64,000 nucleotides of DNA, from positions 5,084,001-5,148,000 of the forward strand of contig NZ_JAMLFW010000001.1 of NCBI RefSeq assembly GCF_024256385.1, in the 5' to 3' direction. This document shows, in pieces, positions 50,382-56,581 of the stretch. This stretch comes from Anatilimnocola floriformis. Lineage in GTDB: Bacteria > Planctomycetota > Planctomycetia > Pirellulales > Pirellulaceae. Both the position numbers and the translations under genes were made by a program. Position 1 is the first letter of the stretch. Each line of letters starts with the position of its first letter. The notes under the pieces are model-generated. The model made no database searches, was not told where the DNA came from, and was given only the letters and a program-made list of their open reading frames with translations.

Positions 50382-50423
50382 GGACGTTTTCCCGTCTGGC
50401 AGGTAGTGAACTACGATAGAGAT

Positions 50424-51059
50424 ATGAGCACGACACCTTCTTCAATACCCGATCCCGCAGGCTGGACGTCAACCACCGTCAGCATGGGGCCTGAGATACT
50501 CGATCGGATGGAGCGCGCCGTGACCAAAGTTCGTGAACGCTTGCTGCGCGCGACAAAAGCCCTGAACCAAGCCGGCATTCCGTACGCCGTGGTCGGTGGA
50601 CATGCGGTGGCGTCGTGGGTGGCCACGATTGATGAAGGCGCTGTTCGCAATACGCGCGATGTAGATCTGCTTGTGCGCCGCAACGATTTGCCCGTCATCA
50701 CCAGTGTGCTTGAGCAAGCGGGTTTCGTGGCCGGCAAGGCGATGGACGTAGTCTTGTTTCGTGATGGCGAGGATGGCAAACCCAGCGAGGCGATTCACTT
50801 GCTCTTCGCTGGCGAAAAGACGCGGCCCGATCATTTGCTCCCCGCACCGGAGATCGAAACGATCGATGATCCCGCGAACTTTCGAGTTTTGCAGCTGGAG
50901 TCGGTGCTGATCATGAAGCTGATGAGCAATCGCGATAAGGATCGGACTCATCTTCGTGACTTAATTGCCTTGGGCTTGATCGACGCCACCTGGCTGCCGA
51001 ACTTGCCCACCGAACTCGCCGCGCGGTTGCAGCACTTGCTCGATACGCCCGATGGTTAA
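50424..51059 (+). CDS. Nucleotidyltransferase-fold protein
   Basis: A 211-residue protein. A helical N-terminus (ERAVTKVRERLLRATKAL) leads to the nucleotidyltransferase core: VVGGHAVASWVA and NTRDVDLLVRRND, a GG motif and a DxD metal site. The C-terminal part is helical (LQLESVLIMKLMSNRDKDRTHLRDLIALGL), with a K and R/D pattern similar to that of AbiEii- and MNT-like proteins. No toxin/antitoxin partner is visible on either side. ATG 50424 was preferred to GTG 50406. Possible roles include modification of tRNA, protein or small molecules. Confidence 0.75.
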   Translation: MSTTPSSIPDPAGWTSTTVSMGPEILDRMERAVTKVRERLLRATKALNQAGIPYAVVGGHAVASWVATIDEGAVRNTRDVDLLVRRNDLPVITSVLEQAGFVAGKAMDVVLFRDGEDGKPSEAIHLLFAGEKTRPDHLLPAPEIETIDDPANFRVLQLESVLIMKLMSNRDKDRTHLRDLIALGLIDATWLPNLPTELAARLQHLLDTPDG

Positions 51060-51145: not shown

Positions 51146-54100
51146 ATGGCGGCGGTCTCGCAACTCCTAGCCGATCTCGCGACGGGCGTCGCGCTCCTGA
51201 CCATACCCGTCCTCGCGCTCTTCCTCGCGTTCACCAACCGCCTGCGGATGAACGTGTTGTATTGGTTGCTGATTGTGCTACTCGTCGCCGCCGGCGCGAT
51301 GCACATGACGCAGGCCATTCCTTGGCTGCGCGAAAACAATACGCTGCATTTCATCGTCGGCACGACGATGGCCATTCTCTCGTGGGCCACACTCATCACG
51401 CTCTTGATCGTGGTGCCGCGGTTGCTCGAGCAGCGCAGCCCCGAAGAGCTGCAGCATCAGATCATCCGCCGCGAGTTGGCCGAAACGCGTCTGAAAGAAA
51501 CGATCGCACTCTATCAGTCGTTGAATGAAAGTCTGCCGCTCAACGTGATCCGCAAGGATCTGGCCGGCGGTTTTATCGATTGCAATCAGCGATTTTGCGA
51601 TACGCTGCAGCGCTCGCGTGAATCGATCTTGCACCGGAACGACTTCGATTTTTTCCCCGAAGAGCAAGCGGCCAAGTATCGCTACGACGATATGCAGGTC
51701 ATCTCCACCGGCCAACCACTGGAAGTCGTCGAAGAATACGTCGGCCCGCATGGCGAGAAGTTGTACATGCAGGTGCTCAAGGCGCCCGTCCGCGATGCCG
51801 CGGGCAAGATCATCGGCGTGCAAGGAATGTTCTGGGATGTCACGCTTCGCATGCGAGCCGAAGATGCCTTGCGGGCCAGCGATGCTCGCTTCCGTAAGCT
51901 GGGGCAGTCGAGCATTATCGGCGTGATTGTCGCCACCTTCGACGGCCGCATCCTCGAAGCCAACGACGCCTTCCTGCATATGATCGGCCGGACGCGCGAG
52001 GAGTTTACCAAGGGGATGGTCCGCTGGGATGAAATCACGCCGGCCGATTTTCGCGCGGGCGACGAGCAGGCTATCGCCACGTTGCTCGAACACGACGATT
52101 GTGCTCCCTACGAAAAGGAATTCATCCACGCCGCCGGCCATCGCGTGCCCGTGCTGATCGGCGTGACGATGCTCAGCCGTTCGCCGCAAGAATGCATTTG
52201 CTTCGTGGCCGATATCACGAAACAGAAACAGACCGAGCGCGAACTAACTGCCGCCAAAGAAGCAGCCGACCTGGCGAACCGCGCCAAGAGCCAATTCCTG
52301 GCCAACATGAGCCACGAAGTTCGCACGCCCATGAACGCCGTGATCGGCCTGACCGAGCTTGTGCTCAATACGCCGCTCGAAATGCAACAGCGCGAATATC
52401 TGCAACTCGTGCTGCAATCGGGCGAAGGCTTGCTCTCGGTCATCAACGACGTGCTCGACTTTTCGAAGGTCGAATCTGGACACATCGAGCTCGATCGGCA
52501 ACCGGTTGCGCTGCGCGAATGTCTGGGGGATGCGCTCAAGTCGCTCGCCGTGCGCGCTCACAGCAAGCAGCTGGAGCTGTTGCTCGACGTCGGTCCAGAC
52601 GTGCCCGAGTGGGTTGTCGCTGATCGGGGTCGGCTGCGGCAAGTGATCATCAATTTGGTGAGCAACTCGATCAAGTTCACCTACGCGGGCGAAGTGATCG
52701 TGAATGTTGCGCTCGTCGGCAAGAGCGCCAGCGTGCACGAACAATCGGTCGAAGTGAAATTCTCGGTCACCGACACCGGCATCGGCATCGCGCAGGAAAA
52801 ACAGCGTCTCATCTTCGAGCCCTTCGAGCAGGCCGATGCCTCGACCACGCGGCAGTTCGGCGGCACGGGGCTGGGGCTGACGATTGTGCAGCGGCTCGTC
52901 GATCTCATGGGTGGCTCGATCGACGTCGCCAGCAATCTGGGCCGCGGCAGTACGTTTCATTTCACCCTCACGCTCGATACTTGCCCGGCACCCGCTTCGG
53001 CGGTCGCTCAGCGCGCGGTGAGTCTCGATGGCGCCCGCGTGATGGTTGTCGACGATCACGCCACCAGTCGGCGAATTTTGGAAGAAACGCTTCGTAGTTG
53101 GCGGATGCAGCCGCTGCTCTTCAGCAGCACGCAGGCCGCGATTCAACATTTCGAAGCATCGAATGGTCAGCCTCCTTGCGATCTCGTGCTCGCCGATGTT
53201 CGGCAAAATGATCACGAGGCCTGGCAACTGCTCGAACAGATTCGCGGCAACCCGGCCACGGCCGATCTGCCGGTGATTCTGCTGATGTCGCACGACATTC
53301 TCGACATAGCGCCGCAATGTCAGCGGTTCGGCATTAAGACGCGCCTGTTCAAACCGGTGAAGCAATCGGAGCTGCTCGACGCTCTTGCCGATGCGCTGCA
53401 TTCCGACGAATTGAACGACGGCGAAAAGAGTGCGCCGCTGCCGGCCTCGACGTCGCCGGTCGCCGTTCGTTCGCTGCGAATTCTGCTGGCGGAAGACAGC
53501 CTGGTGAATCAGCGGCTGGCCGTTGGGACGCTTGAGCGGCTCGGCCATCAAACAACGATTGCGAACAACGGGCAAGAGGCTTTGTCGCTCTTGCAGCGGC
53601 AGTCGTTCGATCTGGTCCTGATGGACATTCAAATGCCCGAGCTCGATGGCCTGGAGACAAGCCTGCGCATTCGCGAGCAGGAAAAACGCACCGGTGGTCA
53701 CATTCCGATCATCGCGGTAACCGCCCATGCATTAAAAGGAGATCGCGAGCGTTGCCTGGAGGTCGGCATGGACGGTTATGTATCGAAACCGATCCGGCAG
53801 AAGTTGCTCATCGAGGAGATCGAGCACGTGCTGGGAACGTCGCTCGCGCCGCGGCCGGTATCGGCCGACGATTACTCGGTGAATGGCGTGAGTCCGATCA
53901 ACTGGCAAGTGGCTCTCGATTTCTGCGGTGGCGATCCGGCGCTGTTACGCGATATCGCCGAAGCCTTTCTCGAAGAATGGCCGAAGCGCTCGACCGAAAT
54001 CCGCCGCGCGCTCGATGCCTGCGATTTTGAACTGCTGCATCGCGCCGCCCACACGGTAAAAGGTTCGATGCGCTACTTCGGCGCTCATCAAGCCTTTCAA

Positions 54101-54259
54101 ACGGCGCTCGATCTGGAATTGCGCGGCTCGCAAAAGAGCGACGCCGGGGCCGAAGAGATCTGGACGCGATTGCAGCATGAAGTGCAATGCGTCGTGCCGC
54201 CCCTCGTCGAGTACGTCCAAGGCCGCCTGCAATTGCCGGCGATGCCAGTGGCTGTTTAA
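51146..54259 (+). CDS. Hybrid sensor histidine kinase with ethylene-receptor-like N-terminal domain
   Basis: A 1037-residue membrane kinase. Residues 8-90 form three helices that line up with the plant ethylene-receptor domain: D10 and P21 are 11 residues apart, and H53 occupies the copper His position, but the Cys four residues before it is Ala49. Two PAS domains follow (~115-365). The kinase has H390 (NMSHEVRTP) and an ATPase domain (~495-615, [11 protein letters not shown]). Two receiver domains have Asp684 and Asp827, and the HPt domain has H969 (AAHTVKGS). The phosphorelay is complete in one chain. No other gene nearby suggests a ligand or output. Confidence 0.9.
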
Positions 54260-55485: not shown

Positions 55486-55519
55486 TGGCGGCCGGTAGGG
55501 TTTTCGAAAGGAAGTGTGC

Positions 55520-56581
55520 ATGTTGCCAATTTGCCGCCGAAATTTTCTCGCTGCCACGGGAAGCCTGCTAGGAGCAGGACTCGCTGGCAATTTTCTGCCT
55601 GCTGCTGCGCAGGCCAAATTCGGCGATGCCGAACGCCTGGCCGCAACCCTGATCAAGCCCGCCACCCAAGCCGCCATCGACAAAGCACTCGCCTGGCTCG
55701 CCAGCCGGCAGAACGACGATGGCTCGTTCGGCGGCAATGGTTACAGCCGCAACATCGCCGTGGTCAGTCTCGCCGGCATGGCCTTCCTTTCGGCCGGCAA
55801 CACTCCTGGCCGCGGTGAGTATGGCGAGCATGTCAACAAATGCATCAGCTATGTGCTGAATGCTGCCGATGAGAGCGGCTTTGTTTCGGTGCCGTCGACG
55901 GCTTCGCACGGGCCGATGTACGACCACGGCTTTGCGACCCTGTTCCTCGCCGAAATTTACGGCATGACGCCCGATTCCGATGTGCGCGACAAATTGCATC
56001 GCGCGGTTCGGCTGATCGTGACAACACAGAATCAAGAGGGTGGCTGGCGGTATCAGCCCAAGCCGGTCGAAGCAGACATCAGCGTGACCATTTGCCAGAT
56101 GATGGCCCTCCGCGCCGCTCGCAACGCCGGCCTCTATGTGCCGAATGAAACGGTCGACCGCTGTATTGAATATGTGAAACGCAGCCAGAACGCCGACGGC
56201 GGATTCATGTACATGCTGCAGGGCGGCCCGAGCAAGTTCCCGCGTTCCGCCGCTGGAGTCGTCGCGCTCTATAGCGCCGGCATCTACGAGGGAGATGAAA
56301 TTCGCAAAGGCCTCGATTACATTTCGCAGCAGTTGCCGAAGGCCGAAGACTTCAGCCGCGATACGCATGCGATGTACGGCCATTACTACGCCACCCAGGC
56401 CATGTGGCAAGCCGGCGGCGAGCACTGGAACAAATGGTATCCCGCCATTCACGATGTGCTACTCAAATGGCAGCAAAACGACGGCTCGTGGATGGATCTG
56501 ATCTGTGCCGAATATGGCACAGCCATGGCGTGCATCATTCTGCAAATGCCCAACAACTACTTGCCGATTTTCCAACGGTGA
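55520..56581 (+). CDS. Tat-exported prenyltransferase/squalene-cyclase-repeat protein
   Basis: A 353-residue protein with a twin-arginine signal (PICRRNFLAATGSLLGAG). The rest is an alpha-alpha barrel of the terpene cyclase/prenyltransferase-beta type. Repeats with Q/N-G-G-W/F turns are visible: RQNDDGSFGGNG, TQNQEGGWRYQPKP, SQNADGGFMYMLQ, WQQNDGSWMD. The DxDD and metal-site motifs of active cyclases are not evident, so it is probably a binding protein rather than an enzyme. AAAGGAAG lies upstream of ATG 55520. Its TGA overlaps the GTG of the next gene. Confidence 0.8.
   Translation: MLPICRRNFLAATGSLLGAGLAGNFLPAAAQAKFGDAERLAATLIKPATQAAIDKALAWLASRQNDDGSFGGNGYSRNIAVVSLAGMAFLSAGNTPGRGEYGEHVNKCISYVLNAADESGFVSVPSTASHGPMYDHGFATLFLAEIYGMTPDSDVRDKLHRAVRLIVTTQNQEGGWRYQPKPVEADISVTICQMMALRAARNAGLYVPNETVDRCIEYVKRSQNADGGFMYMLQGGPSKFPRSAAGVVALYSAGIYEGDEIRKGLDYISQQLPKAEDFSRDTHAMYGHYYATQAMWQAGGEHWNKWYPAIHDVLLKWQQNDGSWMDLICAEYGTAMACIILQMPNNYLPIFQR

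Follow-up and report, generated by a model that had tools for sequence, protein, structure and literature searches.

What does an ethylene-receptor-type membrane domain do once it has lost the cysteine that holds the copper ion? Bacterial proteins with an ETR1_N domain are usually treated as putative ethylene receptors (PMC11819568, for example). The question is raised by a hybrid histidine kinase of the planctomycete Anatilimnocola floriformis, encoded in the 64,000 nucleotides analyzed here (the window, to which coordinates refer unless a contig is named), whose first 95 residues carry alanine where the receptors have their copper-binding cysteine.

The open reading frame runs on the plus strand from 51146 to 54259, including the stop codon, and specifies 1037 residues. 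Its ethylene-binding-type domain (EBD; residues 1-95, 51146..51430), with three predicted transmembrane (TM) helices, is followed by a putative signal helix or linker (51434..51487), which overlaps a predicted helix at residues 99-113 and holds a 10-residue stretch identical in the same-genus orthologue L038. Behind it, on the same strand, Pfam finds PAS_4 (residues 128-235, 51527..51850), PAS_9 (residues 259-359, 51920..52222), HisKA (residues 380-445, 52283..52480), HATPase_c (residues 493-611, 52622..52978), two receivers matched as two stretches of Response_reg, the second at residues 779-892 (53480..53821), and Hpt (residues 937-1012, 53954..54181). This combination defines a hybrid kinase with an Hpt domain, and a letter check found the phosphorelay residues H390 (HisKA, phospho-acceptor), D684 (likely that of the first receiver), D827 (second receiver) and H969 (Hpt) all present; the roles given here are those typical of the families. 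Kinases of the BarA/TorS type are likewise single polypeptides that combine a kinase with receiver(s) and an Hpt domain, although their sensor differs; the NCBIfam equivalog cut-offs for BarA, TorS and the like were not reached among the 25 families listed of 168, the best being BarA with 488 of 890 bits. Directly upstream of the hybrid kinase lies a nucleotidyltransferase-like gene (NTP_transf_5, 34 bits; 50406-51056), and the protein encoded at 55514-56578 has repeats like those of squalene-hopene cyclases (SQHop_cyclase_C, 44 bits).

An earlier note, written from the letters alone, had proposed an ethylene-receptor-like sensor in residues 1-95, and this assignment holds. ETR1_N (PF25487; curated cut-off, 27 bits) matches residues about 5-95 with 41.1 bits (E 2.3e-10) when residues 1-95 are isolated, and with 35.5 bits, also above the cut-off, on the whole protein. 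A local profile built from canonical planctomycete domains gives the EBD 36.6 bits, against 12.4 for the best of 5000 shuffles. In an alignment of 70 rows (the EBD and 69 of the best 80 of 454 relatives), D10, G50, H53, A57 and S79 are invariant and the A49 column is nearly invariant Cys. The register is therefore independent of the ETR1 sequence, and the alignment and the site table agree on the pairs named in the note, D10 with Asp25, P21 with Pro36, A49 with Cys65 and H53 with His69, the last thus falling at the copper site. The letters D10, I20, P21, A49, G50, H53, S79 and P91 were verified in the hybrid kinase. AlphaFold2, with a model built on the alignment of canonical relatives, predicts helices at 2-29, 37-57 and 65-95 and then 99-113 (mean pLDDT 90, pTM 0.70); the first three would be the TM helices, in the register known for the family, the last of them corresponding to the third receptor helix, as the note had also read it, with S79 at Ser98 and P91 at Pro110.

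Searches beyond the family were less productive. The AlphaFold2 model of the EBD gave 58 matches at E <= 10 in a PDB fold search, none at E <= 0.001; a PDB sequence search found no relative for this EBD nor for one canonical domain; and PHROGs yielded a single match of unknown function (17 bits, E 0.01). The viral collection gave 20 pattern matches and no relative. Used alone, the EBD produced 155 pattern matches and no relative in the scan of genome contigs; the canonical alignment retrieved the 454 relatives from the contigs. All of the best 80 loci taken from these have Cys-x3-His, the sole exception among 81 ORF pieces being a fragment of L194, and this is no estimate of frequency because one of the two search patterns includes the Cys. 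A chance resemblance, or another register, was also considered. At 41 bits the Pfam score is modest, a canonical paralogue of the same genome reaching 122; yet it stands above the curated cut-off, the profile score is far over the 5000 shuffles, the D, G and H columns are invariant in 70 rows, and the orthologues L042 and L043, whose kinase body is the same, reach 65-72 bits, so that this explanation is ruled out for practical purposes.

The domain departs from the receptors at more than the cysteine. At sites 25, 28, 32, 35, 36, 62, 65, 69, 91, 94, 98 and 110, Arabidopsis ETR1 has D, I, Y, I, P, I, C, H, K, T, S and P, and the hybrid kinase D, T, L, I, P, L, A, H, G, M, S and P. AtETR1 depends on D25, Y32, I35, P36, I62, C65 and H69 for ethylene binding, of which the hybrid kinase keeps D25 (Asp10, codon 51173..51175), I35 (I20), P36 (Pro21, 51206..51208) and H69 (His53, 51302..51304) and changes Y32 (L17), I62 (L46) and C65 (Ala49, 51290..51292). 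The requirement for seven residues is given in PMC11819568 and PMC6682694; among them, D25, I35, P36, I62, C65 and H69 are named in PMC6586836 and PMC11819568. The copper-ligand cysteine expected of a functional ethylene receptor is thus absent, with no Cys anywhere in residues 1-114, and the histidine is present, just as the earlier note had it. To its list we add the replacement of Tyr32, Ile62, Lys91 and Thr94 and a missing N-terminal extension. Lys91, the partner of Asp25, has become G72; of the 149 Cys+His rows, 147 have K or R at this site, and of the 8 Cys-less rows, 3 have K (the rows are related). Thr94, found in 143 of the 149 Cys+His rows, has become Met75 (51368..51370). The stretch that precedes helix 1 in canonical relatives, many of them with a CG-W-S motif, is missing from the genus of the hybrid kinase.

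Could copper be held all the same? Cu(I) might still be bound through His53 together with Asp10, Met75 or Met52/Met54, perhaps with ethylene at lower affinity. Asp10, His53 and Met75 are indeed all there, PMC12643061 assigns Asp25, along with Cys65 and His69, to the copper site, and a receptor with Asn at the Asp25 position is reported to be functional still, with an affinity about 100-fold lower (PMC13012798). On the other side, AtETR1 and SynEtr1 no longer bind ethylene once this Cys is mutated, according to PMC11819568; Tyr32 and Ile62 are replaced; and L038 has Leu in place of both M52 and M54. We regard retention of Cu(I) as quite unlikely.

The loss is not peculiar to one genome. Four kinases from three genera share one architecture: the hybrid kinase; L038 (G004), from the only other genome of its genus in the family search, with Ala at the Cys site; and L042 (G046) and L043 (G200), from two further genera of the family, which have the same domain order and Gly at the Cys site, and whose kinase bodies share 57% and 55% identity with that of the hybrid kinase. 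His is kept in all four. In a kinase-body tree of 14 rows (row L239 entered uncut), they form one clade (100/99). Judged by the sequences, the Cys-less state is common to all four EBD-bearing orthologues found and is inherited, and it is set against a column that is nearly invariant Cys in the aligned relatives; a single loss of Cys before the three genera parted would be the simplest history. A canonical Cys/His paralogue is encoded in the same genome (G000:C1:2102016-2102303; PF25487, 122 bits). It belongs to the same family and has the same linker, RSPEEL, after TM3, but it carries both Cys and His, a shorter kinase with one receiver, and no PAS domain that we found. Since the two occur in one genome, they offer a paired comparison.

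The earlier note had also suggested that the domain may sense a different molecule or bind a metal other than copper. What the four orthologues have kept bears on the alternative that the EBD was repurposed, its former pocket, lined by His53 and Met75, now binding a different gas or small hydrophobic molecule and helix 3 carrying the signal. His53 and Met75 are found in 4/4, all four share Leu at the Ile62 position and Ala at residue 9, and the transmission residues persist (S79 and P91 in the hybrid kinase; Ser98 in 3/4 and Pro110 in 4/4), as do the phosphorelay residues of the hybrid kinase. Ser98 and Pro110 are reported to be required for signal transmission, and T94 to line ethylene positions within 5 Å of copper in an ETR1 model (PMC6586836). 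The same paper assigns T94 a role in signaling and no effect on ethylene binding, which weakens the argument for a pocket. Moreover, the four are identical at only 15 of 107 aligned columns, Asp25 is Asn in 2/4, and Lys91 differs in 3/4. We consider repurposing a real but minor possibility. A conversion in one ancestor, inherited by at least three planctomycete genera, might have dismantled the thiolate-copper site while keeping His53 and fixing Met75, leaving a His/Met pocket for another gas or hydrophobic molecule or for thioether-held Cu(I); this we think rather improbable.

The pace at which the domain has changed is informative here. We compared 20 pairs of near relatives, hand-picked and all given: 15 canonical pairs, presumed rather than established orthologues, and 5 Cys-less pairs, four in the group of the hybrid kinase and one with Ser at the Cys site. 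The ratio of EBD pN to the pN of the 270-284 codons behind it was 0.33-1.00 in 15/15 canonical pairs and 1.35-2.86 in 5/5 Cys-less pairs, and EBD pN/pS was 0.09-0.27 (n=15) versus 0.40-0.88 (n=5), a pattern rather than a calibrated test, as pairs share rows and pS is near saturation in most. Canonical pairs that are equally diverged behind the EBD (pN 0.42 in L035/L036, 0.26 in L029/L030 and 0.24 in L017/L034, versus 0.15-0.29 in the Cys-less pairs) still keep their EBD better. Helix 2, which bears the Cys and the His, is on average the best-conserved segment of canonical pairs (mean identity 0.91; 0.77-0.81 in the other three segments) and the least conserved of Cys-less pairs (0.39; 0.44-0.49 elsewhere), the largest mean drop of the four segments, although it is the lowest in only 2/5 single Cys-less pairs. 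By these sequence measures, constraint on the EBD is relaxed relative to canonical receptors.

Relaxed does not mean vanished. Between the hybrid kinase and L038, pN/pS is 0.39 for the EBD, little more than for the first receiver (0.37) or the Hpt region (0.34), and 0.26 for the whole protein, and helix 1 is 81% identical, a 14-residue and a 10-residue stretch being identical; we conclude from the near-equal ratios and the helix that constraint persists. This bears on a further reading, in which the EBD is simply decaying towards loss and the gene encodes a weakly anchored PAS kinase. Such a course would suit the raised pN/pS of the Cys-less pairs and the N-terminal extension already gone in the genus, but the same-genus ratio, the survival of the domain in three genera and the confident fold prediction for three hydrophobic helices that remain open argue against it, and we give it very little credence.

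The shared Cys-less state and the weaker constraint, with the copper helix dropping most, make the evidence lean towards loss of the ligand site over a tightly kept new site. With moderate confidence, we thus see in the hybrid kinase a former ethylene sensor that lacks the Cu(I)/ethylene site and is kept as a membrane anchor and signal helix for a kinase with PAS input. Without the Cys thiolate, the EBD would hold no high-affinity Cu(I) and bind no ethylene. It would persist as a dimeric membrane anchor whose third helix continues into the signaling helix of the kinase, input would probably come mainly through the two PAS domains, and phosphoryl groups would pass from H390 via the receiver(s) to H969 and on to separate response regulators. 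Several observations fit this reading less well. A mere anchor need not keep a histidine, and yet His53 is kept in 4/4 orthologues, and His69 in 7/8 Cys-less rows, despite the fast change of the EBD, a retention that would favor repurposing; Met75 is invariant in a clade where canonical rows have Thr; the same-genus EBD ratio is barely above those of the receiver and the Hpt region; and helix 2 is the least conserved by mean only, its low mean counting in turn against a tightly kept new pocket. The fast change may equally reflect adaptation to a new ligand, and five pairs that share rows are few.

Comparison with known receptors sharpens the puzzle. Like the EBDs of ETR1, SynEtr1 and AzoEtr1, that of the hybrid kinase places three N-terminal TM helices on a histidine kinase and has equivalents of Asp25, Ile35, Pro36, His69, Ser98 and Pro110; unlike them, it has Cys65, Tyr32, Ile62, Lys91 and Thr94 replaced, lacks the N-terminal extension, and is followed by two PAS domains, two receivers and an Hpt domain. 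The AzoEtr1 variant C75A carries the same Cys-to-Ala replacement, and the etr1-1 allele is said to lose the copper Cys as well. According to PMC11819568, whose authors note confounders, C75A did not restore biofilm formation and comparable SynEtr1 mutants were non-functional, while plant mutants still signal. Mutants of the C65 type are laboratory-made, and the bacterial ones are reportedly non-functional, whereas the version in the hybrid kinase is natural and inherited across genera, with its phosphorelay residues intact. A bacterial lineage that has undergone this replacement and yet retains its kinase must have altered how the EBD is coupled, and the kept His53 and the clade-specific Met75 are the two residues of chief interest for this problem. 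Here, then, is a natural lineage in which the EBD survives the loss of a residue whose replacement reportedly disables AzoEtr1 and SynEtr1 (PMC11819568). It lets the membrane-transducer role of the fold be separated from its copper and ethylene roles, and it warns against annotating ethylene receptors by domain alone. Among the papers listed, judged by title and opening of the abstract, no natural Cys-less domain was recognized.

The surroundings of the kinase body point to an exchangeable input module. A search with the PAS region (up to 10 candidates scored per genome) returned 12 of 241 genomes at E < 1e-77, the next at 2.5e-49. Apart from those of the four orthologues, eight of these genomes have a related PAS-PAS-HisKA-REC-REC-Hpt body (L239-L246) without ETR1_N, three with CHASE and five with an N-terminus without a Pfam name, on which we base the exchangeability; no intact Cys/His EBD sits on this body in the 12 genomes with a related one. 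As for output, two REC-protein genes lie downstream of each kinase in G046 and G200. In the three of these four proteins that were scanned, HATPase_c_2 is above the cut-off in two and below it in one truncated by the end of the stretch; REC-HATPase_c_2 response regulators are thus encoded behind the kinase at L042:919-1824 and L043:6658-7563. Among eight stretches taken, such a gene also lies behind the G069 orthologue, with a partial match 2.8 kb downstream in G110. The genome of the hybrid kinase has two relatives on the same contig, outside the window (G000:C1:5059849 and 2948179), one of them 75 kb away and 54% identical to the G046 protein. Anti-sigma factors like RsbW have an ATPase of the HATPase_c_2 type, and for this reason the hybrid kinase may feed a partner-switch pathway, the separate response regulators perhaps being the REC-HATPase_c_2 proteins that adjoin the orthologous kinases in two other genera. 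When the nine flanking proteins of the window were compared with the fetched flanks of L038, L042 and L043, a single match appeared (41 residues, E 6e-4), and the upstream NTP_transf_5 gene had none.

How common are such departures? Within the family, 63 of 241 genomes have a match to PF25487 (E <= 0.01; 60 above the cut-off), as do 79 of 396 in the order (E <= 0.01; 64 above) and 42 of 392 in the phylum (E <= 0.001; all 42 above), in genome samples that overlap. After near-identical domains were merged (L041 into L040), 89 distinct rows comprised 78 with Cys and His, 8 without Cys and 3 without His only; 8/89 is no frequency, since low-scoring matches were mostly chosen on purpose. The rows omit partial matches in G144, G211, G157 (C10), G037 (second) and G652 (C92), the loci L057 and L087-L092 (below the Pfam cut-off, no local-profile match), and the sub-threshold matches L003, L004 and L007 of the kinase's own genome. 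At the Cys site, the eight Cys-less rows have Ala (hybrid kinase, L038), Gly (L042, L043), Ser (L039, L040), Tyr (L083) or Phe (L085), and L085 is the one without His69. In the domain tree, where starred branches force one change only, the hybrid kinase groups with L038, L042 and L043 (88/92, long branches), and L039 with L040 elsewhere (99/97); L083 and L085 also lie elsewhere. The Ser pair stands apart, on a kinase that has a single receiver and lacks an Hpt, which makes more than one loss of Cys in the ETR1_N family probable. A single origin of all Cys-less domains is unsupported by this tree, though the separating forks are not starred and one loss may yet account for all.

Other variants were seen along the way. 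In the Ser pair (L039 and L040 from G166 and G167, with a near-identical domain in G168), the EBD changes faster still, with a pN ratio of 2.86. L123, L084 and L086 keep the Cys and have His69 replaced by Cys, Tyr and Phe, respectively. In the ETR1_N domain at L106:3259-3642, some 13 extra residues separate helices 1 and 2, and L055 has a shorter insert. At L083:4468-4812 (G245), a multi-PAS HisKA_3 kinase has Tyr at the place of Cys65 with the His kept, the replacement that the Arabidopsis etr1-1 allele reportedly carries.
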